A DNA stretch of 64,000 bases from a bacterium (GTDB lineage Bacteria > Eisenbacteria > RBG-16-71-46 > CAIMUX01): positions 1-64,000 of the forward strand of contig JAUIHP010000001.1 in NCBI GenBank assembly GCA_030431975.1, written 5' to 3'. The stretch's first letter is position 1, and every line of letters starts with the position of its first letter. Of the stretch, positions 5,539 to 45,256 are shown piece after piece. Both the position numbers and the translations under genes were made by a program. Below the pieces are notes generated by a model that was not told the origin of the DNA, made no database searches, and was given only the letters and a program-made list of their open reading frames with translations.

Positions 5539-5560
5539 CTATCCCTGCGGTCGAAAGCAC

Positions 5561-5594: not shown

Positions 5595-5647
5595 GGCCTC
5601 CGGAGAAAGTGCGCCGCGTTCGGGCGCCGTCTCCGCATCCATACAGC

Positions 5648-5673: not shown

Positions 5674-5695
5674 CGCAATCTCGTCTCTGGGCGCG

Positions 5696-6759: not shown

Positions 6760-6813
6760 CTTTTCGCCTTCCGACGACCGCCGTCGCGGCTGACGCGGAG
6801 CAGGGACCGTTAC

Positions 6814-7908: not shown

Positions 7909-8018
7909 CTCCCGATGCCCAGTTTCCGGCATCCAATGGTAAGAGGTGAAGATCGCTGGAAAACCGTAGTTTCGCCGTCGGGGACAGGGTCCGCTTGGGA
8001 CCGACCGAAGTCCGAGTC

Positions 8019-8549: not shown

Positions 8550-10589
<2,040 letters not shown>

Positions 10590-18010: not shown

Positions 18011-18422
18011 TCGGGCGGCCTCCTTCCCGTCTCCCTTGATCGGCCCGGAAAGTGAGGGTCATTAGCCCGGAATGCGGGATGGCCGCCATTCTGGGAGGAA
18101 TCACCCGCAGTTTCTTTGGAGTCCACCCGGAAGGAACTGCCTGGTTGTCATATGGGTTTCCCTGACTGCCCAAAGTGGGCCTAAGCAACTACTTGGCAAC
18201 ACCTTGCGAGCAATGAAGCGCAAGTCGATCGGGCTGGCATTCGGAAAGCCCTTAGATGGTGGAAAACCCGTCGGCCGATATTCTTACTGCGTTCGCGGAG
18301 CTCTGAAGCCCGCCACGGTCCCGCCGTCCTTCTTCTGACCAACGACGGTGTGGCCTTCGGACGCCGGCACTCGTCGTCGCCACGTGAAGGGTATGGAGTT
18401 CCCGACGGTAAGGAGGGATCGC
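18011..18422. other. Divergent intergenic region between the receptor and vor genes
   Basis: These 412 nt should hold promoters for the TonB-dependent receptor (leftward) and the vor operon (rightward). I see one short hairpin (GCCCA-AAG-TGGGC at 18168-18180) and the strong AAGGAGG for vorB near 18411. No convincing -35/-10 pair, riboswitch or small gene was found. Confidence 0.5.
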
Positions 18423-21274: not shown

Positions 21275-21314
21275 AGCTCCCGAGGCAAACCTCCAGGACG
21301 AAGGAAGGTTCTCG

Positions 21315-29820: not shown

Positions 29821-30030
29821 TCAGACCGAGAACGAGGCAGAGTCGCGATCTATCCGATCTCCGGTTCGGGTTTCCATCGGAATCCCATCATCTGAAGGCC
29901 CGCACGAATGGCACTTGCCTTCCACTCCCGGCTGTTCCGGATCAAGCCGGGCCACCACCTGCTGCACGACGACCCACCCCGCGCAGAGCAGTCCCGCTCC
30001 CAAAACAAACCATACCTGGGTCCAATCCAT
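29821..30030 (-). CDS. Small membrane protein with CxxC motif at the end of the rnf operon
   Basis: The 69-residue product has one N-terminal membrane helix (VWFVLGAGLLCAGWVVVQQVV) and a cytoplasmic tail with GKCHSCG. It begins 12 nt after rnfA on the same strand, with GGAG upstream of the ATG, so it belongs to the operon. In Na+-NQR systems the small membrane protein NqrM, also with clustered Cys residues, is needed to mature the complex. This protein could be an analogous assembly or iron-delivery factor for Rnf, but the sequences are not clearly related. It is not a known Rnf subunit. Confidence 0.65.
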   Translation of the reverse strand: MDWTQVWFVLGAGLLCAGWVVVQQVVARLDPEQPGVEGKCHSCGPSDDGIPMETRTGDRIDRDSASFSV

Positions 30031-30042
30031 GAGTGTCTCCGA

Positions 30043-30621
30043 TCACGCTTCGCCGAAGAGCCCGGCAAAGCCCATGAAGGCTAGGGAAAGGATTCCCGCG
30101 ATGATGAGGTTGAGAGCCGTTCCCCGAATGACGGATGGAACGTCCGAAAGCTGAGCTTCGACACGAAGTCCCGCCATGAGGACGAGTGCCAGAGTGAAAC
30201 CCAGTCCGCCTCCCAGGGCAAAGACCTGTCCCTGAACGAAGCCGTAGCCCTTCTGGGTTTGGAACAGGGCCAGTCCAAGGATTGCGCAGTTGGTCGTCAT
30301 AAGGGGCAGGAAGATCCCCAGTGCGCGAAAGAGTCCGGGGCTCAGCTTCTTCACCGCCATCTCCACGAACTGAACCGTACTGGCGATGACGACGATGAAG
30401 GTGATGAGTCGCAGGTACGGCGCATGAACCAGTACGTAGGACTCCAAGGCCCAGGCTCCGGCGGACGCGATACACATGACGAAGGTGCTCGCGAGTCCGA
30501 GACGGAAAGCCACGTCGAGACGCCCCGAGACTCCGAAGAACGGGCAGAGTCCGAGGAAGTAGGAGAGCGTGAAGTTCTGAACGAGCGCCGCTCCGATGAA
30601 GATCCAGAGTAGATCGGCCAT
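30043..30621 (-). CDS. rnfA: Rnf complex subunit A
   Basis: RnfA is one of two homologous membrane subunits that form the ion path and bind an intramembrane iron-sulfur centre with RnfE. The 192-residue protein has six membrane helices. The conserved Cys motif is LSYFLGLCPFFGVSG, and a second half-site is MTTNCAILGLALF. The start at 30621 was chosen over upstream codons because GGAGGG precedes it and the family begins with a short MxxLLWIFIGAALVQNF segment. It starts 1 nt after the rnfE stop. Confidence 0.95.
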   Translation of the reverse strand: MADLLWIFIGAALVQNFTLSYFLGLCPFFGVSGRLDVAFRLGLASTFVMCIASAGAWALESYVLVHAPYLRLITFIVVIASTVQFVEMAVKKLSPGLFRALGIFLPLMTTNCAILGLALFQTQKGYGFVQGQVFALGGGLGFTLALVLMAGLRVEAQLSDVPSVIRGTALNLIIAGILSLAFMGFAGLFGEA

Positions 30622-30622
30622 A

Positions 30623-31267
30623 TCAGGCGGCCCTCCGTTCCAGTTTGCTCGCTTGCAGTCGCCGCTGCTTCCAGGCATTTCCGATCAGCAGGAGCAGGCC
30701 CAACATGATGAAACCACCGGGAGGAAGGATCATCACGACCCAGGGTTCGAACGTGGAACCGAAGAGCGGAACGCCGAAAAGGGATCCGAAGCCCAGGACC
30801 TCTCTCGATGCGCCGAGCAGGAACAGGGCGATGGTAAAACCGACGGACATTCCGGCCGCGTCGGCCAGAGCGAACCGAACCGAATGTTTCGAAGCGAAAG
30901 CCTCCTGGCGGCCGAGGATGAGGCAGTTGACGACGATGAGTGAGATGAACGCCCCCAACTCTTTGTGAACAGCCGGCACGATCGCCTGCAGCAGAAAGTC
31001 GGCCGCGGTGACGAACGTGGCAATGACGACGATGTAGGTCGAGATTCTCACTTCCTTGGGAACGAAACGACGCAGCAACGAGATGAGAAAACTGGATCCC
31101 AAGAGGACGAAGGTCGTGGCGCCGCCCATGGCGATGGCGTTGACCGCTGTGTTCGTCACAGCCAGCATCGGACACATTCCGAGCACTTGGACGAAGACGG
31201 GATTCTCTCGCCAGATACCCTTGAGAAACTCTTCGTAGGCCTTCATGTCGACCTCAGAGGGACTCAT
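30623..31267 (-). CDS. rnfE: Rnf complex subunit E
   Basis: RnfE pairs with RnfA in the membrane core of the ferredoxin:NAD+ oxidoreductase. The 214 residues start with an amphipathic helix (YEEFLKGIWRENPVFVQVLG) and have the conserved Cys motifs GMCPMLAVTNTAVN and VNCLILGRQEAFAS at the ends of half-helices. Six membrane helices are evident. Its ATG overlaps the rnfG stop by 4 nt (ATGA). Confidence 0.95.
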   Translation of the reverse strand: MSPSEVDMKAYEEFLKGIWRENPVFVQVLGMCPMLAVTNTAVNAIAMGGATTFVLLGSSFLISLLRRFVPKEVRISTYIVVIATFVTAADFLLQAIVPAVHKELGAFISLIVVNCLILGRQEAFASKHSVRFALADAAGMSVGFTIALFLLGASREVLGFGSLFGVPLFGSTFEPWVVMILPPGGFIMLGLLLLIGNAWKQRRLQASKLERRAA

Positions 31268-31917
31268 CCATCCACCTCCTCGGCCTTCAATGTGGCAGGA
31301 TCGGGCAGTTCCGAAAGCCAGTTTGAGTTCGTTTCATTGACGATGCGCACGAGCGCGCGGGAAGAGATGGTGGCACCCGTGATGGCGTGGATGATGTTGT
31401 CGCCGGTCGCGGTCGCTTCCTTGACCAACTCCACGGCGGGTTCGACACGAACGTCATCCCACTGGGCGACGAACTCTGGGTCCTTGTAGATCTTGTCCCC
31501 CAGTCCCGGCGTCTCCCGGCTTTCCAGGACGCGCATCCCGGTCAGTTTCTTCCCTTCCGGATCGAATCCGTAGAGCAACCGGATGACGTCCTGAAAGCCG
31601 GCGCCTTCGCCACGTAGCGCAAACCCGACAAAGGTCCCGGATTCGTCATAGGCGGCGAACAAGTCGGGGGCGGGACCGGATCTGGCCGAGGGAGTCTCCG
31701 CTCTCCAGTCGCCGTCTTCGCTTCGGAAAAGTGCGAGCAGTTTCTGGGCTCCGGGTACGACTTCGAACACGGCCTGGCGCAACGCTTCCGCGCGGTGGGC
31801 TTCGATCTTCGGCAGAGTCCACTCATAGACCAACACCGTGATGAGGCCGGAGAAGAGGCCGGCCAACCCCAGAGTGAGGATGAGTCGGATCGGGCTGGCC
31901 GCTTTCGGAGTGTCCAT
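31264..31917 (-). CDS. rnfG: Rnf complex subunit G, covalent flavoprotein
   Basis: RnfG carries FMN bound through a phosphoester to a threonine and faces the outside of the membrane. The 217-residue protein has one N-terminal membrane helix (LILTLGLAGLFSGLITVLVYE) and the flavinylation site TGATISSRALV near residue 187. GFALRGEGAGFQDVIRLLYG and VLESRETPGLG are family segments. No ApbE flavin transferase gene is in the window. GGGAGG precedes the ATG, 3 nt after the rnfD stop. Confidence 0.94.
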   Translation of the reverse strand: MDTPKAASPIRLILTLGLAGLFSGLITVLVYEWTLPKIEAHRAEALRQAVFEVVPGAQKLLALFRSEDGDWRAETPSARSGPAPDLFAAYDESGTFVGFALRGEGAGFQDVIRLLYGFDPEGKKLTGMRVLESRETPGLGDKIYKDPEFVAQWDDVRVEPAVELVKEATATGDNIIHAITGATISSRALVRIVNETNSNWLSELPDPATLKAEEVDG

Positions 31918-31920
31918 GCG

Positions 31921-32934
31921 CTACCTCCCGAAAACCCGCGGCTGTGTGACCCGCTCGATCAGGGGAACAGCGGCGTTCATGAGCAGAATGGCGTACATGA
32001 CGCCTTCCGGAAGTCCGCCGAAGAGGCGGATGAGCACGACAATCGCACCGATCCCTGCACCAAAGATGAACGCGGCTTTGGGAACGGCCGGAGAGGTCGC
32101 CGGATCCGTCGCCATGAAGACTGCGCCGAAGAGCAGCCCGCCCGAGGTGAGCATGACCAATGGATTCGGACACAGTGTTTCATCAATGAGATGGAAGAGC
32201 CCCGACAACAGAATGACGGTCAGGAGCAGACTGACCGGAACCCGCCAATCAAAGAGTCTGCGCAACGCCATCCATCCGCCGCAAAGAATGAGGACGAGCG
32301 CGCTCGTCTCGCCCAAAGATCCGGGGATGTTTCCGGTGAAGAGGCTCGACAAGGCTTCGACATCACCATCGAACTTCATTCGTGAAAGAGGGGTCGCGGT
32401 GGTAATGGCATCGACCTCGCTCCCCAGAAACGGCGGCGCCAACGGGGTGCCTCGAAGCTCCGTCCACTGGGCGAACCCGCCCTGCGGATTCCACGTCGTC
32501 ATGGCTACGGGAAAGGCCGCCTGCAGAAAGGCGCGTCCCACGAGCGCCGGGTTGAAGGGGTTTCCACCCAGACCACCCCAGGGCAGCTTGCCCAAACCGA
32601 TGGCCGCGACCCCGCCCACGAACGCCATCCAGAGAGGAACCCCGGGCGGCAGCGTCAATCCCAGCAGGATGCCGGTGAGCACACCGCTGCCGTCCGCGAG
32701 AGTCGCACCCCTCCCCTGTCCGGCGCGCCGCGGCGCGAATCCCCACTCCGTAAGGACAGCACCTGCCGTCGCCGCCGCCACGATGAGCAGCGCACCGAAC
32801 CCGAAGTACCAGGTCGCCGCAAGAATCACCGGCAGGAGGACCAGGTTGACCTCGATCATGAGGCGGGGCGTCGTCAACCGCGCAGAGTCGAAGGGTGAGG
32901 TGTGAACGAGGAGTTCGCCGGAGTGTGGCTTCAT
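31921..32934 (-). CDS. rnfD: Rnf complex subunit D
   Basis: RnfD is a polytopic membrane subunit with covalent FMN and is thought to be central to ion translocation. The 337 residues contain about nine membrane helices. The flavin-attachment threonine is in TTATPLSRMKF near residue 180; GGNPFNPALVGRAFL and the GLLFGAVFMATDPATSP segment are strong family marks. The start at 32934 fits the family; upstream in-frame codons overlap the rnfC end. It follows the rnfC stop by 4 nt. Confidence 0.94.
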   Translation of the reverse strand: MKPHSGELLVHTSPFDSARLTTPRLMIEVNLVLLPVILAATWYFGFGALLIVAAATAGAVLTEWGFAPRRAGQGRGATLADGSGVLTGILLGLTLPPGVPLWMAFVGGVAAIGLGKLPWGGLGGNPFNPALVGRAFLQAAFPVAMTTWNPQGGFAQWTELRGTPLAPPFLGSEVDAITTATPLSRMKFDGDVEALSSLFTGNIPGSLGETSALVLILCGGWMALRRLFDWRVPVSLLLTVILLSGLFHLIDETLCPNPLVMLTSGGLLFGAVFMATDPATSPAVPKAAFIFGAGIGAIVVLIRLFGGLPEGVMYAILLMNAAVPLIERVTQPRVFGR

Positions 32935-32938
32935 ACGC

Positions 32939-34267
32939 TTAGCCCCGCTTCTTCCCGCGCAGCGACGACTTGGAGACACGAATCAGCTGCACGATCGGAA
33001 TGTTGGACGGACACGCATACGAGCACGAGCCGCACTCCATGCAGTCCATGACGTAGGCCTGTTCCATCTCTTCGTAACGACGCACTTTGGCCAGGCGCAC
33101 CAGCTTCGAAGGATTGAGAAACGCGGGACAGGCTTCGACGCACCGGCCACACTTCAAACAGGTGTACTCCGCGGCGCGATCCAGCTGGGTCTGCGGAAAC
33201 GCGAGCAACCCCGAAGTTCCCTTGAGCACCGGTGCATCCAAACTGATCATGGGCTGCCCCATCATCGGGCCACCCATGACGACCTCGCGCGTCTCGGCGT
33301 TCAGTCCCCCGCAGGTGTCGAGCACATCGCGCACCGGAGTTCCGATGGGAACGATCAGGTTGCTCGGCCGACCGACGTTGGGACCCGCGATCGTCACCAC
33401 TCTTTCGACCAGCGGACGCCCCAGATCGAATGCGTCCGCAATCGCGACCATCGTTCCCACGTTGTTGACCAGAGCACCGACTTCCAGGGGCAGGCGACCG
33501 GCGGGCACCTCTTCGCCAAGGAGCGCCTTGATCAGCATCTTCTCTGCACCCTGCGGATACTTGACGACCAAGTCGACGATACGGATCCGCTCGTCGCCTC
33601 TCGCCGCTTCGCGCATCGCCGCAACCGCGTCGGGCTTGTTCTTCTCGATGCCAACATGGACTTCCGGAATCCGCAGGTTGTCGGCGAGGATACGAATCCC
33701 GCGGACGACGCGTTCGGCAAACTCGACCATGACCCGATGGTCACAGGTCAGATACGGTTCGCATTCACATCCGTTGATGATGAGTTTCTGGGCGGGCTTG
33801 TCCGGAGACAGCTTGTACTTGACGTGCGCCGGAAAGGCGGCGCCTCCCATCCCGACGATTCCCATCGACTGCACGAACTCGACGAACTGATCGTTGTCGA
33901 GCGTGGACGGGTCCGTCGGCTTGGGTTCCGGCCAGGTTTGTGCGGAAAACGGGTCGGCCTCGATCTCGATCGCCGGGACAAGGCTTCCGTTGGGATGACG
34001 ACAGCGATCCAGCGAACGGACGGTTCCCGAAACCGGACTGTGCAGCGACGTTGAAACGAAACCATCCGCACGGGCCAGGAGCTGACCGCGCACGACCTTT
34101 TGCCCCGGATGGACCACGGGGACACTCGGTTTGCCGCCATGTTGCCCGAGCAACAGCTCGTAGCGCGGCACAAAGGCCATGCGCTCTGTTTCCAGGTGCG
34201 CTGTCTGGTCCTTGTGCTCTTCCGGATGGACTCCGTGACGGAAGCTGCGTGCGCCGAAAAAGCTCAT
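32939..34267 (-). CDS. rnfC: Rnf complex subunit C
   Basis: RnfC is the peripheral subunit that binds NAD(H) and FMN and carries two [4Fe-4S] clusters. The N-terminal Rnf barrel-sandwich domain (HPGQKVVRGQLLARADGFVS) is followed by a Nuo51-like Rossmann domain (GMGGAAFPAHVKYKL, INGCECEPYLTCDHRVM) and an SLBB domain. The Cys motifs CLKCGRCVEACP and CMECGSCSYACP are near residues 370 and 410. The 442 residues lack the long Ala-rich tail of enterobacterial RnfC. Its start overlaps the stop of the 1366-residue gene (ATGA). Confidence 0.96.
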   Translation of the reverse strand: MSFFGARSFRHGVHPEEHKDQTAHLETERMAFVPRYELLLGQHGGKPSVPVVHPGQKVVRGQLLARADGFVSTSLHSPVSGTVRSLDRCRHPNGSLVPAIEIEADPFSAQTWPEPKPTDPSTLDNDQFVEFVQSMGIVGMGGAAFPAHVKYKLSPDKPAQKLIINGCECEPYLTCDHRVMVEFAERVVRGIRILADNLRIPEVHVGIEKNKPDAVAAMREAARGDERIRIVDLVVKYPQGAEKMLIKALLGEEVPAGRLPLEVGALVNNVGTMVAIADAFDLGRPLVERVVTIAGPNVGRPSNLIVPIGTPVRDVLDTCGGLNAETREVVMGGPMMGQPMISLDAPVLKGTSGLLAFPQTQLDRAAEYTCLKCGRCVEACPAFLNPSKLVRLAKVRRYEEMEQAYVMDCMECGSCSYACPSNIPIVQLIRVSKSSLRGKKRG

Positions 34268-37200
34268 TGAGCGGAGCCCCCGTTCCTGGAGTCCCTGTTG
34301 CCGGCCGCGGCCAGCCCCAACTTCGACACTTCGCCCAGCCGTCGGGCCAGACGCCGGACCAGTTCGTCTTCCGTCGTCTTGCGCGCCGACTGTTCGGCCG
34401 AAGCAATCTCTGCTCGAAGTCGTGAGATTTGGTCACGGAGCGAATCGGCTTCGGAAGCAGCACCGTCGGAATCAGCACGGTCGGGGACAGCGTCGCCGAA
34501 GCCCGCGCCGACTGCAGTGGCGGCAGAGTCCGGGCCGACACGTCGATCAAGGCGCTCTCCCCCCGCGTTCCACACGCCCAACGAAAATCGGCCGGATTCG
34601 ATCTCATCCCGGACAGCTTCCCAGGACCGTTTGACTTCTTCTTGCACGTCGTCGCCCAAGCCGGCGACTTCCGGTTCAGCCACCAACACCCGGAGCACGA
34701 CCGGGCCACCCGCCTGGGCGGCGGCCGAAAGCGCAAGGTTCATATGACGCGGAGCCAATGGAGAGGTTTGGACGGGCAACGCGTTCCCATCGGCCAGCGA
34801 GACTGCGACAGGAGAGGCACTCGGTGCCCGTCCCTCGGTTGGAACACTCGACGGCCGGGACATGAGCACAACCCAGACAGGTGAGCCCGTTGCAACGAGT
34901 GGGCGTAGCGCATCCGAAGTCGGGCTCCATGATGACTCGTCGACAAGCAGGACCAAACGAGGTTGCAGTTGCTTCACGGTCAGCGGATCGGGCTGTTTTC
35001 CGGAAGCCGAGGCCGGACCTGCGTCGTCCAGCCACTCCACGGCCTGCCGCAGTGCATTCGTTTCCCGGGCCGCTCGTTCCGACATCGAACGCAAGACCCC
35101 TTCCGCAACACCGATGACCGCTCGCGGGTCCGTCATCGTGACCGTGGGAGTCGACACGGCATTCGTGGGATGTTGGGAGACCCACTCCATCCCCGGGCCC
35201 AGGACCAGCGCCGCCGAACGTCGTCCCACCCCGGAAGCGCCGTCGAACCGCCAACGCAAGTCGGCGAGGAAACGGCCCAACTCGACGCCTCGCGCCAGGT
35301 ACTCGGAATCGATCCGCCCGTCCCGATCCGCGTCCTCCAATGTTTTCGCCAGGCTGCGCAGATCGAGGGCGTCCCATTGGCGTGGGTCGGCGTTCATGGC
35401 CGGAAGAAGCCCTTCGCTCGTTTCCTTGGACATCGAAGAGGTCGCCGCTCTCCCGAGTTCCTGTTGCACCCGCTCGGCTGTCTCTCGCTGTAGGTTCTCG
35501 ATCGACTGAACTAGTCCGGAACGGTCCCAGGACCATTCCAACGCCTGAAGAATCGATCGAATGGCGGAGGCCTGGCCGGAACCTGGCCGGTTCGGACGAC
35601 CGGAGAATGCCGGCACCCCCGTCGCAGCCGCGGATGAACCCGCGAGCTCACCACAGAACGGGGTCAGTCGCTGAGTCGCGGCTGCGTCCATGGGGGGAAG
35701 CGCACCGACCGCAGAGAAGACCTGGAGAGCGTCTTCGCGATCAAAGCCCGGTTCGAGGGCGTCTTCTCTGCAAACCTGGGTGCAAAGCCCACACGCCGTA
35801 CAAGCATCCGGATCGATGGCGAGGGAGACAAAGCCTCCCTCGGTAGGCTTGGGCAGGCCCTCTCTTTCAGACCTGCCGACCGGGACAGACGGACGGACGA
35901 GCGGCGCGGCTTCGAGCCTCTTCGCCGCAACCTTGATGAGCGGACGAAGCTCCTTTGCCGCTTCCGCGTTCTTGGAGTTCTTACCCGACCAGGCATCGAA
36001 TCCACCATGAACCAGGTCCGACAGGCGCGAGGCGTTTGGGTTCATTCCCGCCTCTGCCATCGCCGAGGTCAAAGAGCGCGCGCTCCTGCGAAGAAGCGAG
36101 GCATCCTTTCCCGCCTTGCCGACCGCGTCCAACAAAGATGTGAATACATCGGCGGCATCAAAAGACCGCACGCTGAACGCCGACTCCGGACAGACCGACC
36201 AGCAGTCCCCACAGCCCGTGCAAGCCAGCGCCTGCAGCGCAGGGGGAGCCTGGGTGGAAGACGCCTTCCAAAGGGAGGCAGTTGCCGGAGGAAGGGTCGG
36301 CACCGACGAATGGGGCTCAGGATCCGGGTCGGTTCGCCCCCACCCCTCGGCGACGTGGTGCCGGAAGCGAGCCACGTCGAGGAGCGTGCCATCGGCGGAA
36401 AGATCACTCAGGGCGTCCGGGTGATCATCGAGTGACCCGCCCCTTGAGTTTTGTACCATGGACGTCGTTCGGGTCCGTGATTCCGGATTCGTTCTCGCGT
36501 CGGCATCCGGGTTCGCTTCCGGACTCGCCTGCGTTCCTTTCTTCGTGTTCGTTTCTGTTTCCGAAACCTCTTGGAAGGAATCGGCCAGTGTTAGGACGGC
36601 CTCTAACCACTGCTCCTTCGCATGCAGTTCTTCGTCGCTATCCGCAGTCGAGAATCGGGACCGGACGGCGACGGCATCCAAGGCGCGGGGCGACAATTCC
36701 GGTACCTGCCGAAGTGATGCCAGAAGGAGCGCAGCCGCACGCTGACTCAGTCCAAAGGCCGATGTGTCACTGCCGGGCGAGCCTCCGTCGTCCGATGACT
36801 CGAGAGACACACGCAAAGTAGGGGAAGCCGATGCGTCCAGAGGCGAGTCTGAGCCCTGCGGTCGAACCCGAAACGTTCGCGTCGCTCCGTGCGCGGTGGT
36901 CTGCACCTCCTGCACGGTCGCATCCAGAATCCGAGCCACGAACTCCAGTGCGGCGGCGACATGACCGATTCGCGCTGTGTCCGCGGCCTGGCTCCCGGAA
37001 TCCCATGGGACCTCGATCCGCAGTGCGCCGCCGACTTCTTCGGAGACTCCCGGGTTCGTGTCGTCCGCCTTCAGGCCCAGTCCCACGAGATCCGGACGTT
37101 CGCGCCGCATCTTGCCGAAGTACGCCTCGCGATGCGGAAAATCAGGAAACACCGTGGGAAGAAACTCCTGACCGACGTAGACGGTTCGCGATGCGGGCTG

Positions 37201-38364
37201 GGCGTCACGAAGGAGAGAGAGGTCGGCAACGCGAAGGGGCGATCCGCCCAGCCCCCAAACCGCCTGATGGGTTTCCGTGGGCTCGTTTGGGTTTAGATGA
37301 AGGAAGCGCCGAAGAATGGCTGTTCCCCTGTGAACCTTGGACTCCGAAGGTTGTTCGGCGTCGGTCAACGATCCGCCAAGGAGCCGCGACAAGGGCAACG
37401 ATCCGTCAAAGGAAACCGGCGCGCGGTCGAGGATCCAGACTTCATCTCCTTCAATCGCTTCGGTTAGGGAACCTCGCGGAAACGGTGAGAGCTGGTCGAC
37501 CGCGATGACGTTCGAATCCTCTCCCAACGCTTCGACCGCGGCGACGTAGGCGGGACCTGTCGTAATGACCGTACGCTTCACCTCGCCTGATGTCTTGTGG
37601 ATCCGGAACGGACCGAGAGTCGCATCATCGCCCTCTGCCACGCAGGTCGAAGACCAATCCTGCCAGGCATTACGGATGGCCATGTCGAGGCGCGGATCGA
37701 GATGTACTGCAGCGGCGGCTCTCCCTGCGCCTTCGCTCCAACGATCCCTCGAAACGTTCGAGGCCAAGGGCCTGTCGACATCGAACCAGGCCGGAACGAC
37801 GCTCCTTGCGTCTCCGAAGAACGCTTCGTCTACCGGCGCGGCGGACGGACGGAGTTCCCCGGCTGGACGAACGAACTTGTGCAGTTCCGCTGAACCGGGC
37901 CACACCAGATCGGCAGGCGACCGGCTGCATGTTGTTCCATCGACGGCGACGACGACAGGGCTGAGCGCCTCCTCGGCCGCACGGCGTCCGACCTGAGCTT
38001 CGGCAATCATCGTCGAGGGAGAGCCGGCCAAGAACACAGGCAGTCCCAGTTCGACGGCGACGTACGCCGGCCGGTGGTCACCGGTCAGCTCCAGGTAAAT
38101 CAGGAGGGGCACACGCTGACGCATCGCGTCTTCCACCAGATCGAGTGAACGGAGGAAGTCCCGATCATCGAGCCAGGCGCTCCCGCGTCCACCGGCCAGG
38201 GCGTAGCCCAACGCGGAGGCCATCCGACGGCGACCTTCCCCTTCGTGGAACAGAGTCGAATGCACCGCGGCTTCGATGTCGACCGCAAGCTGGTAACCGG
38301 AGCGAACGCGCAGGCGATGCAGGCTTCCGGCACGACCGCTTGGTTCCGTTCGACGATCAGACAT
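34264..38364 (-). CDS. 1366-residue PFOR-like iron-sulfur protein with eroded catalytic domains, embedded in rnf
   Basis: Parts match, in order, the domains of single-chain pyruvate:ferredoxin oxidoreductase. About residues 45-185 resemble domain I (YALAGGRGSAWLDDRDFLRS, VVVAVDGTTCSRSPADLVWP). About 255-320 resemble domain II (VITTGPAYVAAVEALG, VIAVDQLSPFPRGSLTEAI). Two ferredoxin motifs are CTGCGDCWSVCP (about 714) and CTACGLCTQVC (about 855), as in domain V. The last 330 residues resemble the cofactor domain, but its GDG..DIG motif is replaced by LVLLVDESSW. The YPITPSS loop of domain I is missing, as is an obvious gamma domain; low-complexity linkers lie near 610-660. It is translated from an ATG that overlaps rnfB by 8 nt (GGAGG upstream) and overlaps rnfC. 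I infer an electron-transfer or scaffold subunit between an oxidoreductase and RnfB/RnfC. Catalysis looks unlikely. Confidence 0.75.
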   Translation of the reverse strand: MSDRRTEPSGRAGSLHRLRVRSGYQLAVDIEAAVHSTLFHEGEGRRRMASALGYALAGGRGSAWLDDRDFLRSLDLVEDAMRQRVPLLIYLELTGDHRPAYVAVELGLPVFLAGSPSTMIAEAQVGRRAAEEALSPVVVAVDGTTCSRSPADLVWPGSAELHKFVRPAGELRPSAAPVDEAFFGDARSVVPAWFDVDRPLASNVSRDRWSEGAGRAAAAVHLDPRLDMAIRNAWQDWSSTCVAEGDDATLGPFRIHKTSGEVKRTVITTGPAYVAAVEALGEDSNVIAVDQLSPFPRGSLTEAIEGDEVWILDRAPVSFDGSLPLSRLLGGSLTDAEQPSESKVHRGTAILRRFLHLNPNEPTETHQAVWGLGGSPLRVADLSLLRDAQPASRTVYVGQEFLPTVFPDFPHREAYFGKMRRERPDLVGLGLKADDTNPGVSEEVGGALRIEVPWDSGSQAADTARIGHVAAALEFVARILDATVQEVQTTAHGATRTFRVRPQGSDSPLDASASPTLRVSLESSDDGGSPGSDTSAFGLSQRAAALLLASLRQVPELSPRALDAVAVRSRFSTADSDEELHAKEQWLEAVLTLADSFQEVSETETNTKKGTQASPEANPDADARTNPESRTRTTSMVQNSRGGSLDDHPDALSDLSADGTLLDVARFRHHVAEGWGRTDPDPEPHSSVPTLPPATASLWKASSTQAPPALQALACTGCGDCWSVCPESAFSVRSFDAADVFTSLLDAVGKAGKDASLLRRSARSLTSAMAEAGMNPNASRLSDLVHGGFDAWSGKNSKNAEAAKELRPLIKVAAKRLEAAPLVRPSVPVGRSEREGLPKPTEGGFVSLAIDPDACTACGLCTQVCREDALEPGFDREDALQVFSAVGALPPMDAAATQRLTPFCGELAGSSAAATGVPAFSGRPNRPGSGQASAIRSILQALEWSWDRSGLVQSIENLQRETAERVQQELGRAATSSMSKETSEGLLPAMNADPRQWDALDLRSLAKTLEDADRDGRIDSEYLARGVELGRFLADLRWRFDGASGVGRRSAALVLGPGMEWVSQHPTNAVSTPTVTMTDPRAVIGVAEGVLRSMSERAARETNALRQAVEWLDDAGPASASGKQPDPLTVKQLQPRLVLLVDESSWSPTSDALRPLVATGSPVWVVLMSRPSSVPTEGRAPSASPVAVSLADGNALPVQTSPLAPRHMNLALSAAAQAGGPVVLRVLVAEPEVAGLGDDVQEEVKRSWEAVRDEIESGRFSLGVWNAGGERLDRRVGPDSAATAVGAGFGDAVPDRADSDGAASEADSLRDQISRLRAEIASAEQSARKTTEDELVRRLARRLGEVSKLGLAAAGNRDSRNGGSAQ

Positions 38365-39238
38365 GGAATCCTCCAGCCGGCGGGGACGAAAGTGTCATGG
38401 AGTCTTTGGCCAATCGATCGCGCTCTTCTTCGAACTGACCGGCCGGTACCCAGCGAATCGAACCCGTCGGACAGCGTAGCGTCGCTTCCGGACTCGCCGG
38501 TCCGCCTGCCGAGTAGTCGATATGCGGAAGTCCATCGCGCATTTCGATGAGTCCCGGCGCAGCGTCGAGCGCGCACTTCCCGCAAGCGTCGCAGGCGGCG
38601 GAGCACACTGCACGTGCAGCGTCTCCTTCCAATGGTGCCGCGCACTGAACGACCAGGGCATGGGCCAACGGTTCGATCGTAAAGAGATCGCGCGGACAGG
38701 CGTCGACACAGTCGCCACATGCCGTGCACAACGCGACATCGACGACGGGAAGTCCGTTCGAGTTCATGTGAATGGCCCCGAAGTCGCACGAGACCTCGCA
38801 ATCGGCAAGGCCCAGGCACCCCCACGAGCAGCCCTTGCCTCCCCCACCAACGACATGAGCCGCGCGACAGTTCGACTGCCCCACGTACTCTGCAATCTGG
38901 TGCGCCTGGGCCAACCCTCCTCCGCAGTGAAGCCTTGCCACGTTCTTCTCAGCCTGTCCCGGATCGACGCCAAGGAACGCAGCCAATCCTTCGATCGCAT
39001 CCGGAGACGAAACGGTACATCCGCTTGGAGCGGCTTCGCCCGCGATGAGCTTCTCCGCGAAGGCGCGACATCCCGGTTCTCCGCAAGCTCCGCAGTTTGA
39101 CCCGGGCAGACGTGCTTCCGCCTCATCGAGTCGAGGATCTTCTTCGACATGGAGAAAGCGATGAGCCAGCGCGAGAAGACCGGCCAGGGAGAATCCCAGT
39201 CCGGCCATGATCGTGGCTGCGACCAGAACGTTCTCCAT
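38357..39238 (-). CDS. rnfB: Rnf complex subunit B, multi-cluster ferredoxin
   Basis: RnfB is the electron entry port that takes electrons from ferredoxin. The N-terminal membrane anchor (VAATIMAGLGFSLAGLLALAH) is followed by the RnfB Cys motif LPGSNCGACGEPGCRAF near residue 46, GGGKGCSWGCLGLADC and SCDFGAIHMN, CTACGDCVDACP and CSAACDACGKC. That gives several [4Fe-4S] sites, as in clostridial and Bacteroidetes RnfB. The gene is separated from rnfC by the 1366-residue gene, unlike the usual rnfB/rnfC adjacency. GGAGGGAGA precedes the ATG. Confidence 0.93.
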   Translation of the reverse strand: MENVLVAATIMAGLGFSLAGLLALAHRFLHVEEDPRLDEAEARLPGSNCGACGEPGCRAFAEKLIAGEAAPSGCTVSSPDAIEGLAAFLGVDPGQAEKNVARLHCGGGLAQAHQIAEYVGQSNCRAAHVVGGGGKGCSWGCLGLADCEVSCDFGAIHMNSNGLPVVDVALCTACGDCVDACPRDLFTIEPLAHALVVQCAAPLEGDAARAVCSAACDACGKCALDAAPGLIEMRDGLPHIDYSAGGPASPEATLRCPTGSIRWVPAGQFEEERDRLAKDSMTLSSPPAGGFHV

Positions 39239-39267
39239 TCTCCCTCCTCCGCGGATGCTCCGGTCCG

Positions 39268-41874
39268 CTAGTTGAACGGCGCGGCCCGGCGACGAAGCTC
39301 ATCGAGATTGGGTTCGTTCGGGTCAAGCGGCGTTCCCGGATGGATGCATCGCGCAGGACACTTCTCTGCGGCCTGGACCAGTTGTGCGTACGTTCCCGCG
39401 TTCGGATCCTTGATCTCGACCTGCTTGTTCGAGTCGTAGACGAAGAGCCGCGGATTGATCTGGACGCAGTCGTTGCAGCTGGTACAGAGCGGAGAATCGA
39501 CGTAGGGATCCATCTCTTCGTCGTCATCTCCCGTTTCGGCGACAGCATCCGGCTGCGCTTCTGATTCTCCGTGAACCTCTGCGTGCGCGTCGGCGCTTTC
39601 CGCGGCGGTACTCGTGCCCGAGTTCAATGCGTCACTCGAGGCGTCACTCGAGGCGTCGCTCGAGTCACCATCCGCTCCTCCGCCGGAACTGGAGCCGGGC
39701 CCCGGTGCCGATCCCGCGCCTGTGCTCGAAACTGCCACGTCGCCCACCGCGGAACCTGCGGCGGACTCTGCCTGCGAGTCTGCCGTGGCAGACAACAGAG
39801 AACGCATCGAGTCCGTCGCGTGCGGATCCAAGTCCAGGAGAAAACGGGCGACGCCCTCCAGTGCTTCCGTCGCGGCCGTTGCTTTGGCCTCTTCGACAGC
39901 CTGCGCGTGTTGCTCCGCGAGTTGGGACCGCTCCGAGTCCCACTCCTCCTCGAGCCCGGCTCGGGACCGGTCGACGGCACGCTGCACGAACTCGTTATCG
40001 ATTCCTGCGAGTTCCTGCAAAGTGTGCCAATAGTCCATCCGGTCGCGTGTGGCTTCGACCAGGGCTCGAGAAACCGCCAGACGAATCGTCCGCCCCTCGG
40101 CGTCGAGCGCCCGAATGAAAGGAACCTCTGCTTCTGCTCCACCGTCGTTGCCCAAATACTGAGAGAGCGGCACGAGATCGGCCGCATCGAGATCATCGGG
40201 AATCAGACGAAACTGAGTTCTCGCACGAGGGTCGAGAAGCGCGAAGTGGGCGAACGTAAAGTCCTCGTCGCCGGACTCCAACGAGTGATGGGGCCACGCC
40301 AGTTCCGGTGCGGGATTGTCACCGAGTTCCAATCGGCGAGCCCAGCTGCGACCGGCAATCGGATCGTAGACGAAGAGAGGATGGGCACGCCCCTCGACGG
40401 CGGCCCCCAGGTGCAACCAAGGACCCGGCTTTCCGTCGAGTGGTGAAGTTCCGATGACGTGCAGAGCCGGTTCAGCACGATCCAAGAGTCGATCAAACGC
40501 CCGCATCAGCGAGCCGGGCTGTGAGAGCACACCCTGATGGGCTGCAGCTTTGCGGTGTCCGATCGCAACGTAGGCCAACTCCAGGCGTGACCGCTCGCCC
40601 AAACACTCCTCCGCACCTGGATCTTCGAAGGGGTCGACGGTCACCAGGACGTGGATGGGCAGCCGACCACGCAACACTTCCGAAAGACTCGAGAGGTGCA
40701 TGCGGTCGAGACTCGTCGTCGCATCGAGAACCGCGGCGATCGGCGGAAGAAATGCGCGTGCGTCACGGGACAGAACCGGCTGCGCACTTTCGAGCCAGGC
40801 GGAATGACGCTCGGGATCGAAACGGCCCTCAAGTTCGAGCTCCAGATGTTTCCGGGCCCGAAGCAAACCGCTCCATACTTCGATCTCACGTTCGAAGAGG
40901 TCCAAGGCCCGAGCACAGGGATCATCGTCATGCAGGGTCAGCTGCCGCTTGTCCTCCTGTTCCCAACTCGGAGGAATGTCGATTCCGGTCGATAGAACGA
41001 CCGCGGCCTCCGGTCCCTCTTCTCCTTCCACATACGCTTCCAGGAACTCGAGACTGGCTTCGATGGCCTTCACTCTCTCCGGAGCGCGTGGAACGGCACC
41101 GCTTCGGCTACCCGTCACCTGTGCAAGTCGGGACGGATCGAACCACGATGACGCCTCCTCTCCCAACTCGGCGCTCACCGCCTCAGGTTTGGATGCTCCA
41201 TCGCCACGGAGTCGCTCCAGCCGCAAAAGCTCACGAGTGCGCCGAACGACGTCCAGGATCTCTTCCCGAAGGGCCCCACGATCCCGGCGCACTGCACGAA
41301 CCGCGCAGTGTTTCCAAACGTCCAAGGCGGAACTTTCGTGAAGAGAAACCCAGGAACCGACCGGCAAGCCGTCGACGAGACGGTCCCAAGCCTGCAGTAA
41401 CTGTTCCTTCGGCGTATCCGAGATGCCGAGGGCGTCCACCGACGTACGACCCGCAGATCGAATCCGGTCGAGCAAATGCGCGGACGCACCCTGACCGTCC
41501 GCACCGGAGCTGTCACCTTCTGGGTTCTCCAGTGATTCTCGGACGGCCCGTTCGAAACGGTCGAGGTTGTCGAGCAGAAACCGCCCGCCCTCGCCGAGAT
41601 CGGTCGTCGAAGCTGCGCGGTGCAGGAGATCCGGCCAGGAGACCCCTCGGCTGTGCCCTTCCTCCTCACCATCCATGAGGAGGAACGGATACGGAGTGCG
41701 GATCCGCGCTGTGTCCCGGAACGGTTGCATGGCGACGGGAATCCAATCGCCCTCCAGCGGAGAGTTCGGGAGGGCGCCATGGACGAAGCGCTGCAGCTCA
41801 ACGATCGGATCGCGATTCGCCGTGACCTGCACTTTCGGATTCATCGGCCGTTCCCGATCCGCGTCAACGCTCAT
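39268..41874 (-). CDS. 868-residue PFOR-cofactor-domain-like protein with C-terminal ferredoxin motif
   Basis: No intact known enzyme is recognisable. The middle (about residues 395-560) aligns by eye with the second part of the PFOR thiamine domain. LSSLSEVLRGRLPIHVLVTV corresponds to the GLDHVLASG..VNVLVLDT segment, LELAYVAIGHRKAAAH to the YVAQVAMGA segment, and LGAAVEGRAHPLFVYDP to the GYWPLYRYDP segment. Cofactor-binding residues are replaced. A coiled-coil-like stretch (about 640-690) and a Ser/Ala/Gly-rich linker with SSDASSDASSDA repeats follow. The C-terminus has a single-cluster ferredoxin motif, CTSCNDC (about 795) with a distal Cys in KCPARCIHPG. It lies between korB and rnfB, with GAGG upstream of the ATG. 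An electron-transfer subunit handing KorAB electrons to RnfB is my inference. Confidence 0.7.
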   Translation of the reverse strand: MSVDADRERPMNPKVQVTANRDPIVELQRFVHGALPNSPLEGDWIPVAMQPFRDTARIRTPYPFLLMDGEEEGHSRGVSWPDLLHRAASTTDLGEGGRFLLDNLDRFERAVRESLENPEGDSSGADGQGASAHLLDRIRSAGRTSVDALGISDTPKEQLLQAWDRLVDGLPVGSWVSLHESSALDVWKHCAVRAVRRDRGALREEILDVVRRTRELLRLERLRGDGASKPEAVSAELGEEASSWFDPSRLAQVTGSRSGAVPRAPERVKAIEASLEFLEAYVEGEEGPEAAVVLSTGIDIPPSWEQEDKRQLTLHDDDPCARALDLFEREIEVWSGLLRARKHLELELEGRFDPERHSAWLESAQPVLSRDARAFLPPIAAVLDATTSLDRMHLSSLSEVLRGRLPIHVLVTVDPFEDPGAEECLGERSRLELAYVAIGHRKAAAHQGVLSQPGSLMRAFDRLLDRAEPALHVIGTSPLDGKPGPWLHLGAAVEGRAHPLFVYDPIAGRSWARRLELGDNPAPELAWPHHSLESGDEDFTFAHFALLDPRARTQFRLIPDDLDAADLVPLSQYLGNDGGAEAEVPFIRALDAEGRTIRLAVSRALVEATRDRMDYWHTLQELAGIDNEFVQRAVDRSRAGLEEEWDSERSQLAEQHAQAVEEAKATAATEALEGVARFLLDLDPHATDSMRSLLSATADSQAESAAGSAVGDVAVSSTGAGSAPGPGSSSGGGADGDSSDASSDASSDALNSGTSTAAESADAHAEVHGESEAQPDAVAETGDDDEEMDPYVDSPLCTSCNDCVQINPRLFVYDSNKQVEIKDPNAGTYAQLVQAAEKCPARCIHPGTPLDPNEPNLDELRRRAAPFN
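39629..39664. repeat. Three 12-nt in-frame tandem repeats in the 868-residue gene
   Basis: GCGTCACTCGAG occurs twice and GCGTCGCTCGAG once, back to back. On the coding strand they give repeated Ser-Ser-Asp-Ala units in the flexible linker before the ferredoxin motif. Confidence 0.85.
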
Positions 41875-41946
41875 CTTGCCTCTTCCTTGATCCGCAACCT
41901 ACGTCGATCCACAACACCCCTTGGCTCACAGACAGGGACCTATTGC

Positions 41947-42909
41947 CTAAATGGCAAAGCGGTCGAGTTCCTGCCCCAGAGCTTCGATCTTCTGATCGGC
42001 GGTCATTCCCATTCCAACCGTGGTGAACTCGTCATAGATCGGCCGTGTCGGATCCCGATAGACGACGCCCACGGGAATCGCTCCTTCCCCACCATCCGCA
42101 TCCGCGATGGCACGGGCTTCCTTCATGTTCGAAGGGTCATGCCCGGACTTGTTGGGGAAGATCCTGGCGATCTTCTCGTCCATGACCAATCCATCCTCGT
42201 GCTGCAGCAACAGCAACTGTGCGGGGTCGTGCTGCAGATGATGGAAAACCTGATCCGTATAGGTGGGGCAACGTTGGAGGATACGAACAAAGCTCGTGCC
42301 CTTGTGATGGTAGGCCGCTTCCAGCACGGCGTGAAGCAACGGCGGATTCCAATCGACAGCCTGGGCCACGAACGAACAGTTCGTGAAGCCCAGGACGGCC
42401 TGCAGCGGATTGAGCGGCGGAAGCCAGGCTCCTCGTGGATGCGTGTTCGTCTTCAGACCTTGCGGACTGGTTGGCGAAGTTTGGTTCTTCGTCAATCCGT
42501 AGACGTTGTTGTCGAAGAGCATGACCGTGATGTCCATGTTGTAGCGAATGGCATGGATCCAGTGGCCGGCTCCGATGGAACAACAATCTCCGTCCCCGGT
42601 GGCCACCCACACCTGAAGATCCGGGCGACGCGACTTGATTCCGCACGCGACCGGAAGGGGCCTCCCGTGAAGCCCGTGAAATCCGTACGTCTTCATGTAG
42701 TGGGGAAAGCGACTGGAACAGCCGATTCCGGAAACGGCGACCACCTTTTCCGGAGGAAGCTGTTCATCGCGACAGATTTTCTGGACTGCGGTCAGAACTC
42801 CGAAGTCTCCGCATCCCGGGCACCACCGAGCGACGCCTCCCTCGTAGTCTTCGAGCGTGAAGTACCGGGCCGGTGGATCCAGTTCCCAATCCTCTTCCAA
42901 TCCGAACAT
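41947..42909 (-). CDS. korB: 2-oxoglutarate:ferredoxin oxidoreductase beta subunit (thiamine-pyrophosphate binding)
   Basis: KorB binds thiamine pyrophosphate and a [4Fe-4S] cluster and decarboxylates 2-oxoglutarate to succinyl-CoA with KorA. WCPGCGDFGVLTAVQK holds two cluster Cys residues, SGIGCSSRFPHYMKTYGFHG follows, and the cofactor motif ATGDGDCCSIGAGHWIHAIR is near residue 104, then FDNNVYGLTKNQTSPTS. All catalytic features are intact. The 320-residue length is usual for KorB. The start at 42909 has AGGAGA upstream and lies 9 nt after the korA stop region. The preference for 2-oxoglutarate is from family resemblance only. Confidence 0.92.
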   Translation of the reverse strand: MFGLEEDWELDPPARYFTLEDYEGGVARWCPGCGDFGVLTAVQKICRDEQLPPEKVVAVSGIGCSSRFPHYMKTYGFHGLHGRPLPVACGIKSRRPDLQVWVATGDGDCCSIGAGHWIHAIRYNMDITVMLFDNNVYGLTKNQTSPTSPQGLKTNTHPRGAWLPPLNPLQAVLGFTNCSFVAQAVDWNPPLLHAVLEAAYHHKGTSFVRILQRCPTYTDQVFHHLQHDPAQLLLLQHEDGLVMDEKIARIFPNKSGHDPSNMKEARAIADADGGEGAIPVGVVYRDPTRPIYDEFTTVGMGMTADQKIEALGQELDRFAI

Positions 42910-42917
42910 GAGATCTC

Positions 42918-44831
42918 CTAGGGTTGCGTCCGGCCGGCGGCGGCGGAGTGTTGCGAGAAGTTCTTCCGGATCACATCGAGAATGATCCCCGGCGAAAGAG
43001 GCTGTCCGTGTACCTGGGACCACGAGTCGACATCGACCAGGGTCTCGTCCCGAAGAAGTGATGCGAACTGGGAACGCCGTCGGTCCGTCGTTGGATCGGC
43101 CGGTGCGTACTCATCGAGATCCGTGTACTGAATGCCGATCGCAAGCACACGATCAAAGCGTTCGAAGATCTCCTTCAGGCCCGGCTCCATCGGAGAGACG
43201 AATCGTAGATGCACGGAGGACACGGAAAGCCCTTCGGCCCGCGCTGCCTCGACCGCTTCTTCGATGGCTCCCAACGTCGAGCCCCAGCCGACGACCAGTA
43301 ACTCTCCGGACTCCTCCCCGTGAACCTTGGGCGGACGGAGCGTCTTCCGAAGCGCGCGGAGCTTGCGGCTCCGCATCTCCATTCCCTTCTGGTTGGAATC
43401 GGGGTCGTAGGCCACATGTGCGTCGCCGGTGTGAGCCAGTCCAGTAAGGACATATTCCCCGCCCGGCTGTCCCGGCACCGGCCGCGGGGAGAGCCCGGTT
43501 TCCGGATCCCAGTCGTACGCCGTCACGTTCGGATCCCACGGCGACGAATCAATCGGCGGTGCGATCCACTCTTCCCTTGGTTCCGGACGAGGAATCGGCT
43601 GAACGCCCGTCGCCAGATTCGCGTCCGTCAGAATGAGCACTGGACCACGGAACGCTTCCGCGAGCTTCCGAGCGGTGATCACCATATGGAAACACTCTTC
43701 GATGGTCGCCGCCGCCATGATGATCTTGGGCGCATCACCCGGAGCTCCATAGAGAGATGCCATGAGGTCACCCTGCTCGACCTTCGTCGGAAGCCCTGTA
43801 CTGGGGCCGCCGCGTTGCACGTCAATGATGACAAGCGGAACTTCGCCCATCACGGCAAGGCCGATGAACTCGGTCTTGAGAGCCAAACCCGGACCCGAGG
43901 TGATCGTGCAGGCCGTCTTGCCTGCATAGCTCGCACCGACGGCAAAACCGATGGCTGCGATTTCGTCTTCGGCCTGGTGAAGCAAGCCGCCGACGCGGAA
44001 GAAGCTGTCCCCGAGGTGGTGGGACACGGAGGTCGCGGGAGTGATCGGATACATCGCCACGACTTCGATTCCGGCGGCCATGATCCCCAGTGCCAAAGCC
44101 TGGTTTCCGTTGACGACGATCTGGGACGTCAGGAGCTCACGCGGCGGAACCTCGAGAGCCACCTCGGCGTTCTCCTGACCGTAGGCGTACCCGGCGCGGA
44201 TCAGGTCCTGGTTCCGCGAGATGACTTCCTCACCCTTTCGCCGGAAGAGGAACGCCGCTTCGGCCAGGGAAAGTTCCACGTTCATCCCGAACATCTCGGT
44301 CAGGAGTCCGAGAACGAACATGTTCTTGCCGACGCGAGGATTGGCAATCAGCTTCGCGCACTCTTCTTCGAGAGGGAACTCCTGAACGATGAAACCCTTT
44401 TCACGGAACTCCGCGATTGCGGTTTCGAACGCCTCGCGAATCTGGGGCGAATCATCCTTGCGCCACTTGGAGTCCAGGAAGATGCGAGTGCCCTTCCGGT
44501 ACGCACCCTGCTGGATGCGTCCGTAGAGCACCTGTTCGTTGAAGGCGATGACGACGTCCGCTTCGTTGCCCATGTTCGTGATGACCTTGGAGCCGAAGCG
44601 AATGCGAATCCCGCTGGCGCCCGCGCGCGACCGGGCCGGCGGCTTGATTTCGGCGGGGATGATCTCCACCGTCCAAACTCCGCAACCGGACTTTGCGCAG
44701 ACGGCGCCGAAAGCCTGTCCCGCTTTCTGGGCGCCCTCTCCGGAGTCACTGACGATTTCAACGATCTGCTCGCGAACCTGGGTGCGTGGTCCTACGGTTC
44801 CGGCAGTGGAACCGTCCGTGGCGTAGCTCAA
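42918..44831 (-). CDS. korA: 2-oxoglutarate:ferredoxin oxidoreductase, gamma and alpha subunits fused
   Basis: Residues about 20-195 form the gamma domain (GEGAQKAGQAFGAVCAKSG, VVIAFNEQVLYG, NMFVLGLLTEMFG). From about residue 230 comes the alpha domain with NGNQALALGIMAAGIEVVAMYPITPATSV, LLHQAEDEIAAIGFAVGASY, TSGPGLALKTEFIGLAVMGE and QRGGPSTGLPTKVEQGDLM, then GRVL-type transketolase C-terminal features. This gamma-alpha fusion is the common KorA form in aerobes and FCB-group bacteria. It overlaps the hemerythrin stop by 4 nt and precedes korB, forming one active enzyme with it. No separate ferredoxin subunit is encoded, so an external ferredoxin or the embedded Fe-S proteins must accept the electrons. 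Confidence 0.93.
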   Translation of the reverse strand: MSYATDGSTAGTVGPRTQVREQIVEIVSDSGEGAQKAGQAFGAVCAKSGCGVWTVEIIPAEIKPPARSRAGASGIRIRFGSKVITNMGNEADVVIAFNEQVLYGRIQQGAYRKGTRIFLDSKWRKDDSPQIREAFETAIAEFREKGFIVQEFPLEEECAKLIANPRVGKNMFVLGLLTEMFGMNVELSLAEAAFLFRRKGEEVISRNQDLIRAGYAYGQENAEVALEVPPRELLTSQIVVNGNQALALGIMAAGIEVVAMYPITPATSVSHHLGDSFFRVGGLLHQAEDEIAAIGFAVGASYAGKTACTITSGPGLALKTEFIGLAVMGEVPLVIIDVQRGGPSTGLPTKVEQGDLMASLYGAPGDAPKIIMAAATIEECFHMVITARKLAEAFRGPVLILTDANLATGVQPIPRPEPREEWIAPPIDSSPWDPNVTAYDWDPETGLSPRPVPGQPGGEYVLTGLAHTGDAHVAYDPDSNQKGMEMRSRKLRALRKTLRPPKVHGEESGELLVVGWGSTLGAIEEAVEAARAEGLSVSSVHLRFVSPMEPGLKEIFERFDRVLAIGIQYTDLDEYAPADPTTDRRRSQFASLLRDETLVDVDSWSQVHGQPLSPGIILDVIRKNFSQHSAAAGRTQP

Positions 44832-45256
44832 TCCCCACCCCCTTCTTCGTGGTAGAAAGCCTCGACGAGCAGTTGGTTCTCGACGATTTCATGTTCACGA
44901 ACCAGGTGAACGAACTCACGAACGGAGTCGATCAGCTGTTGGTGCAAGGGCTGCCCTGACTCCGCTGCCTTCGCCAGCTCAGCCAACTGCTCAACCTGCT
45001 CGATCATGGCGCGGTGTTCGTGAATCAGACCCTTCAGGTCCTGTGAATGTCTGGGATCGACACTCTCGATGGATTCGAACATTCCGTTCGGCCGCTCTTC
45101 TTCCTCGAAGTGGCGTTCAAGCCAGGGACGAAGGGCCTCTACCTGCTTGCGGATGTCTCCCGGATCACGACTCTGTTCGAGTTCGGTGATCATCGGAATC
45201 AGTTCCTTATGATCGTCGTCGACCTGCGGGAATCTTTGGGATACCGGTTGGGACAT
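44828..45256 (-). CDS. Hemerythrin-domain protein, first gene of the kor-rnf operon
   Basis: This 142-residue four-helix protein has the diiron ligand pattern of bacterial hemerythrins: VDDDHKELIPMI, LERHFEEEE, LIHEHRAMIEQV and LVREHEIVENQLL. Such proteins bind O2 or NO reversibly or store iron. The oxygen-sensitive Kor and Rnf proteins follow directly (ATGA overlap with korA), so a protective or sensing role for O2 is a reasonable inference. AGGAGG precedes the ATG. It appears to be the first gene of the operon. Confidence 0.88.
   Translation of the reverse strand: MSQPVSQRFPQVDDDHKELIPMITELEQSRDPGDIRKQVEALRPWLERHFEEEERPNGMFESIESVDPRHSQDLKGLIHEHRAMIEQVEQLAELAKAAESGQPLHQQLIDSVREFVHLVREHEIVENQLLVEAFYHEEGGGD

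Follow-up and report, generated by a model that had tools for sequence, protein, structure and literature searches.

In a 64,000-nucleotide stretch of an Eisenbacteria genome (assembly GCA_030431975.1, contig JAUIHP010000001.1, positions 1 to 64,000; hereafter the window), an operon of twelve genes encodes a putative 2-oxoglutarate:ferredoxin oxidoreductase (KOR; KorA and KorB), an Rnf complex and two large proteins of 868 and 1366 residues (P868 and P1366), which we identified as degenerate paralogues of pyruvate:ferredoxin oxidoreductase (PFOR) (Table 1). Both are homologous to intact PFORs that are linked to Rnf in other genomes, and the view of them as "two novel iron-sulfur partners", taken in a preliminary description of this locus, is therefore rejected. 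As the reading that we hold probable, we infer that KorAB and Rnf together constitute a dedicated 2-oxoglutarate:NAD+ oxidoreductase docked on the membrane (the complex itself, the order of electron hops, the ion, the direction and the substrate alike).

P1366 is a PFOR without its catalytic site

The domain matches of P1366 consist of two 4Fe-4S motifs and a weak POR_N (0.015), but homology to PFOR spans the whole chain. The family profile, which includes intact members, reached the PFOR structure 6CIN at 1.7e-95, and an AlphaFold model of residues 45–1244 (pLDDT 63) matched 6CIN in Foldseek at 1.1e-16, with PFORs making up 18 of the 18 best hits. A full PFOR from an Rnf operon of a deltaproteobacterial metagenome-assembled genome (MAG), P0001 of locus L014 (POR_N 4e-42, POR 5e-27, PFOR_II 1e-13, thiamine pyrophosphate (TPP) domain 6e-7; 6CIN at 1e-84), aligns with P1366 in the ferredoxin region (7e-17), in domain I/II and in domain VI, and the P1366 proteins of relatives keep most of domain I (POR_N 2e-21 in P0003).

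Comparison of functional sites between nine P1366 sequences and six intact PFORs separated the two groups. The eight ferredoxin-domain cysteines of the medial and distal clusters are all kept in every sequence of both groups (9/9 and 6/6), whereas the threonine of YPITP, the domain I glutamate and the TPP/Mg ligands (GDG ... NTGGQ) are lost from 9/9 P1366 proteins and kept in 6/6 PFORs. Similarly, the four proximal-cluster cysteines are present in 6/6 PFORs and gone from P1366, except for one cysteine in Ctena; all four proximal [4Fe-4S] cysteines are absent from the P1366 of the window. This loss of both catalytic ligands and proximal cluster rules out P1366 as a working PFOR. Compared with the NifJ PFORs (6CIN, 1KEK), P1366 thus spans the same domains and retains the domain V clusters, but is without the TPP/Mg ligands, the proximal cluster and the catalytic Thr/Glu. 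Because the catalytic sites are lost while the Fe-S cysteines are retained, P1366 fits a protein that would be under selection for its Fe-S sites alone, i.e., a putative electron conduit.

P868 is a PFOR-derived ferredoxin fusion that accompanies KorAB

The second large protein matches the C-terminal part of the intact Rnf-linked PFOR P0001 (BLASTP 4e-23), including domain VI of NifJ PFOR, and it shares with the Rnf-linked PFORs and the P1366 family a C-terminal extension that the single ordinary NifJ in the comparison lacks. In the tree, the P868 sequences cluster together (99/98) within the Rnf-linked PFOR relatives. TPP-site and proximal-cluster motifs are absent from P868, and the cysteines of its own ferredoxin domain, which matches Desulfovibrio africanus ferredoxin I (1DAX, 1.3e-6), are kept. 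A direct BLASTP between the P868 and P1366 of the window gave no match; the kinship between the two appears to run through their relatives, both window proteins being too diverged.

The ferredoxin domain of P868 was found in other arrangements too. In Thiodiazotropha and in the Myxococcota MAG SP3084, the intact PFOR carries a P868-type one-cluster domain at its end, and such a domain stands free, as a 228-aa protein, beside the PFOR–Rnf operon of a Pseudomonadales MAG; the PFOR-fused, free and P868-fused forms suggest parts of one machine. In two further lineages, the order NfnA–NfnB–korA–korB–P868 occurs with no adjacent rnf (L061, 4544-12278; L180, about 1900-10067, where P868 has three tandem ferredoxin domains), and the genome of L061 (G055) gave no strong rnfC match. 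These clusters share the korAB-P868 pair with the window but have NfnAB-like genes in place of Rnf and no P1366, which suggests a KOR coupled to electron-bifurcating Nfn. Since P868 stays with korAB even beside NfnAB, where no rnf adjoins, we assign P868 to KorAB, as a putative electron adaptor on the KOR side, and P1366 to Rnf. In the phylum of G055, we also observed PFORs encoded by separate alpha-gamma and beta genes, the beta gene bearing the TPP domain (L107, 7423-14583; L108, 602-8372), which adjoin korAB on the opposite strand.

Conserved gene order and sister PFOR–Rnf operons

A check that had been proposed for the locus, namely whether korAB, the two large genes and rnf are linked in related genomes, turned out in its favor: the linkage recurs in several lineages, which rules it out as a quirk of the window genome. 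Scanning one genome per species, many of the relatives being MAGs, we found 16 loci with P1366 relatives, most of which keep the gene order of the window. The series korA-korB-P868-rnfB-P1366-rnfCDGEA is seen again in Thiodiazotropha and further Gammaproteobacteria, in Myxococcota/Deltaproteobacteria and in the order to which the window belongs. A second Rnf operon, in which an intact PFOR of 1549–1687 aa occupies the site between rnfB and rnfC, is present in Thiodiazotropha, the Pseudomonadales MAG and SP3084, and seven genomes (G191, G192, G193, G194, G195, G368 and G419) hold both operon types.

The state of the protein encoded between rnfB and rnfC follows the presence of korAB-P868. Of 369 genomes sampled from Gammaproteobacteria, the class of Thiodiazotropha, 34 matched the P868 profile; among those whose flanks were read, the protein was TPP-dead in 9/9 operons with korAB-P868 and a TPP-intact PFOR in 8/8 operons without korAB. 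Across all operons read, the protein was dead in 18 and intact in 2 of those with korAB-P868, and dead in 0 and intact in 12 of those without it (Fisher p 4e-7, for rows that are not independent).

Co-descent of the operon

In the RnfC tree, proteins from the KOR and PFOR types of operon fall into a single clade (100/99), and canonical Rnf, that of the window's class among it, lies outside this clade. Within the clade, the KOR-type RnfC proteins (n=14) form a clade at 100/100, and the KOR-type RnfB proteins (n=18) likewise group together (99/98). RnfB and RnfC of the window cluster with SP3084 and with relatives from the window's family and order; they do not join the canonical Rnf found in other families of that order and class. 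Because the KOR-type RnfB/RnfC clade stands apart from the canonical Rnf of the class and spans three phyla, we conclude that the operon passed from phylum to phylum as one block.

Within the window's class, the same 3 genomes yielded both P1366 and full-length P868, and about 15 other genomes of the class have an RnfC above the cut-off and neither P868 nor P1366. In the four of these loci that were checked (L064, L065, L066 and L067), canonical rnfCDGEAB is followed by korAB of a different clade (4/4), which is an independent KOR-Rnf linkage without adaptors. The preliminary description had held that absence of the two large genes from relatives that keep kor and rnf would speak against a dedicated complex; such absence does occur, loosely, within the same class, but the Rnf concerned belongs to a different clade.

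KorAB and its substrate

KorAB carries the marks of a two-subunit 2-oxoacid:ferredoxin oxidoreductase (OFOR), i.e., YPITP in the alpha part (at 261 of KorA, with RGGPST at 340) and a GDGD motif and cluster cysteines in KorB. The best solved relative of KorA is 6N2N, a 2-oxoglutarate:ferredoxin oxidoreductase (OGOR; 3e-86), and KorB has an Arg at the position where the 2-oxoglutarate enzymes 6N2N and 8YS5 carry Arg. In three relatives (L172, L173 and L178), the succinyl-CoA synthetase genes sucC-sucD separate P1366 from rnfC (both relatives tested gave scores above curated cut-offs), and FrdA/TfrA-like and NuoF-like genes lie upstream of korA, which together make a compact fumarate-to-2-oxoglutarate set. 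With sucCD inside the operons of relatives, the evidence therefore points to 2-oxoglutarate/succinyl-CoA as the probable substrate pair in this organism. In L178, korA and the end of P868 (9600-15042) are broken by frames or a stop, through either decay or assembly error.

The window KorAB resembles StOFOR (5B46) in the domain order III-I-II of KorA, the one-cluster KorB and the lack of an internal ferredoxin domain, and it differs in its linkage to P868, which supplies a ferredoxin domain. Two-subunit OFORs have an open pocket at the place of PFOR ferredoxin domain V (PMC5020499).

A proposed machine and its alternatives

Mechanistically, KorAB would convert 2-oxoglutarate and CoA to succinyl-CoA and CO2, placing electrons on the [4Fe-4S] cluster of KorB. 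P868 would dock on KorAB and accept these electrons through its own [4Fe-4S] ferredoxin domain, an adaptor being needed because two-subunit KorAB is without the built-in ferredoxin domain of PFOR. P1366, holding the Rnf docking place that the working PFOR has in the sister operon, would then hand electrons to RnfB, so that free ferredoxin would be bypassed; that P868 precedes P1366 in this path is a guess from gene association. Electrons are known to enter Rnf at RnfB and to cross the membrane to RnfC, the usual donor being free ferredoxin (PMC11889175), and the onward path would be the known one through RnfB, RnfA/E, RnfD/G and RnfC to NAD+, coupled to export of Na+ or H+. Such a machine is expected to be reversible: oxidation would be downhill and could pump ions, and the reverse could make 2-oxoglutarate.

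Several observations weigh against this reading. The P1366 of the window has diverged much further than any other member of its family (end branch 2.4), and it is without the C-terminal extension of its relatives. The P868 profile reached only ferredoxin I in the PDB and no PFOR, and because of this we base its PFOR descent on sequence relatives; the P868 model is modest (pLDDT 65), with weak TPP-fold matches (best E 0.05), and its Foldseek search returned nothing below 0.001. Two deltaproteobacterial operons (SP3084 L098 and Dive100 L014/L101) combine korAB and a short P868 with an intact PFOR, although these look like intermediates. Finally, further ferredoxin-reducing enzymes (a NifJ, a VOR and a second korAB-type pair) accompany a single strong RnfC in the window genome, and Rnf may therefore draw on free ferredoxin as well. 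The VOR-type 2-oxoacid:ferredoxin oxidoreductase lies in the window itself (18348-23552, plus strand; a 496-aa Fer4+alpha protein and a beta+gamma fusion) and has a gene for an ADP-forming acyl-CoA synthetase-like protein behind it, a usual set for amino-acid fermentation. A 2-oxoglutarate dehydrogenase E1 is encoded as well, which rules out the operon as the only 2-oxoglutarate route.

This last gene also bears on the direction of flow. The same complex might run in reverse, with NADH and the ion gradient driving KorAB to carboxylate succinyl-CoA to 2-oxoglutarate in a reductive tricarboxylic acid (rTCA) branch, and the dehydrogenase would then cover the oxidative step; many carriers belong to sulfur-oxidising lineages, and the fumarate-to-2-oxoglutarate set of L172, L173 and L178 would suit such a branch. 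The same genes, however, also suit the oxidative direction, KorAB with SucCD in Azoamicaceae has been interpreted as oxidative (PMC11549363), and in Endoriftia at limiting sulfide korAB and a "PFOR-like" gene went down as rTCA genes went up (PMC11636981). We consider reverse flow possible but doubtful.

It is rather unlikely, in our view, that co-regulation is the sole reason for the shared operon, with the electrons carried from KorAB to Rnf by a ferredoxin that diffuses, or by P868's ferredoxin domain acting as one, and with P1366 serving as an accessory acceptor or assembly factor. Canonical rnf beside another korAB in the same class, without P868 and P1366, indicates that adaptor-free co-transcription is workable, the window genome encodes other ferredoxin-reducing enzymes, and free ferredoxin is the normal donor of Rnf (PMC11889175). 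This explanation nevertheless does not account for a PFOR shape without catalysis, its Fe-S sites kept, between rnfB and rnfC, nor for genomes that hold two Rnf operons, each specific for its donor. An activity of P868 and P1366 of their own, small-molecule or regulatory and without electron transfer (e.g., CoA or 2-oxoacid binding), would agree with the domain I kept in relatives' P1366 (P0003) and the TPP-fold domain predicted for P868, but is very improbable, as the loss of TPP/Mg ligands and proximal cluster with all Fe-S cysteines kept is the opposite of what a non-redox role leads one to expect.

Returning to the dedicated KOR–Rnf complex, which the preliminary description had proposed, we find the link between KOR and Rnf strongly supported by gene order, co-descent, sucCD and the retention of Fe-S sites in a dead PFOR; a stable complex, its direction and its ion pumping are putative. 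A fuller version, in which a ferredoxin-free, ion-pumping 2-oxoglutarate:NAD+ supercomplex with a dead PFOR as its wire evolved from PFOR–Rnf by gain of KorAB-P868 and then loss of catalysis, giving Rnf pumps specific for pyruvate or 2-oxoglutarate, seems to us evenly balanced between right and wrong.

Organization of the locus

The twelve same-strand genes initially listed are all present, with intergenic gaps of −8 to +72 bp once start codons were revised for korB (ATG 42909), rnfD (ATG 32934) and rnfA (ATG 30621), each behind a ribosome-binding-like sequence; an alternative, longer korB reading frame starts at a GTG and extends to 43023. Inside the run, no sigma-70-like promoter was found, and terminator-like sites were fewer than in shuffles. 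The Rnf part agrees with the known complex (RnfABCDGE) in its six subunits by family score, flavinylation motifs and intramembrane cysteines; it differs in that the operon also encodes the donor enzyme and two PFOR-derived proteins, and in the separate clade of its RnfC and RnfB.

Two small genes frame the operon. The hemerythrin gene adjoins korA in L022 as in the window and follows P868 in L100, and given these positions the protein likely serves O2 binding or sensing, or protects oxygen-sensitive enzymes from O2. Homologues of the 69-aa protein close the operon in L002, L004, L005, L008, L021, L171, L172 and L176; it had no match in Pfam, and we would guess at a maturation factor.

Table 1. 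Features of the KOR–Rnf operon, with positions in the window
Feature	Position	Strand	Evidence
Hemerythrin HHE protein, 142 aa, first gene	44828..45256	−	PF01814 3.3e-11; 4-bp overlap with korA
KorA, 637 aa, gamma-alpha fusion, two-subunit 2-oxoacid:ferredoxin oxidoreductase	42918..44831	−	TIGR03710 7e-150, above cut-off
KorB, 320 aa from ATG, TPP subunit with one [4Fe-4S]	41947..42909	−	TIGR02177 6e-72
P868, PFOR domain-V/VI paralogue, catalytically dead, ferredoxin domain at the C-terminus	39268..41874	−	BLASTP, alignment, tree
P868, PFOR domain-VI-like region and Rnf-linked-PFOR C-terminal extension, approx. residues 310-630	39985..40947	−	
P868, one-cluster [4Fe-4S] ferredoxin domain, C797, C800, C803, C839/C843	39340..39501	−	PF13370 (Fer4_13) 6e-8
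RnfB, 293 aa, 20 cysteines, one membrane helix	38357..39238	−	PRK07118-type 1e-52
P1366, full-length PFOR paralogue, TPP site and proximal cluster lost	34264..38364	−	Profile, Foldseek, site table
P1366, two [4Fe-4S] motifs, C715/718/721/725 and C855/858/861/865	35755..36231	−	
RnfC, NADH/FMN subunit, two [4Fe-4S]	32939..34267	−	TIGR01945 1e-156; Complex1_51K, SLBB
RnfD, flavinylation motif DAITTATPLS	31921..32934	−	TIGR01946 9e-89
RnfG, flavinylation motif ITGATISS	31264..31917	−	TIGR01947 2e-27
RnfE, two Cys of intramembrane [2Fe-2S] site	30623..31267	−	TIGR01948 2e-66
RnfA, cysteines for intramembrane [2Fe-2S] site	30043..30621	−	TIGR01943 7e-66
Small 69-aa protein, one membrane helix and CHSC, last gene	29821..30030	−	

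Relation to previous reports and significance

In the main texts of open-licence papers, we found no description of this operon, of a PFOR between rnfB and rnfC or of PFOR inactivation, and a 2025 review of Rnf makes no mention of oxoglutarate (PMC12174285). Among the nearest known systems is the Hdr-Flx/KorABCD cluster of the Endoriftia and Escarpia symbionts (PMC6315080, PMC11636981), in which electrons of an OGOR would likewise be channelled via a dedicated partner; that OGOR has four subunits, its partner is HdrABC/FlxABCD, and the text consulted describes no pseudo-PFOR. According to the same papers, the Riftia and Escarpia symbionts also hold Rnf (near Hdr-Flx/KorABCD), a dimeric korAB and the "PFOR-like" gene whose expression falls with that of korAB.

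Rnf is usually described with free ferredoxin, and the two sister operons suggest instead hard-wired pyruvate and 2-oxoglutarate oxidoreductases, as well as an enzyme retained as an electron wire after its catalysis was lost. The degenerate paralogues may account for large genes that are likely mis-annotated as PFOR (cf. the Endoriftia gene regulated with korAB), and the gene signature could be used for predicting donor-specific Rnf pumps. If the proposed machine is real, a step of the tricarboxylic acid cycle would be a site of ion pumping or, run the other way, of gradient-driven CO2 fixation into 2-oxoglutarate, for example in sulfur-oxidising symbionts, Thiodiazotropha among them.

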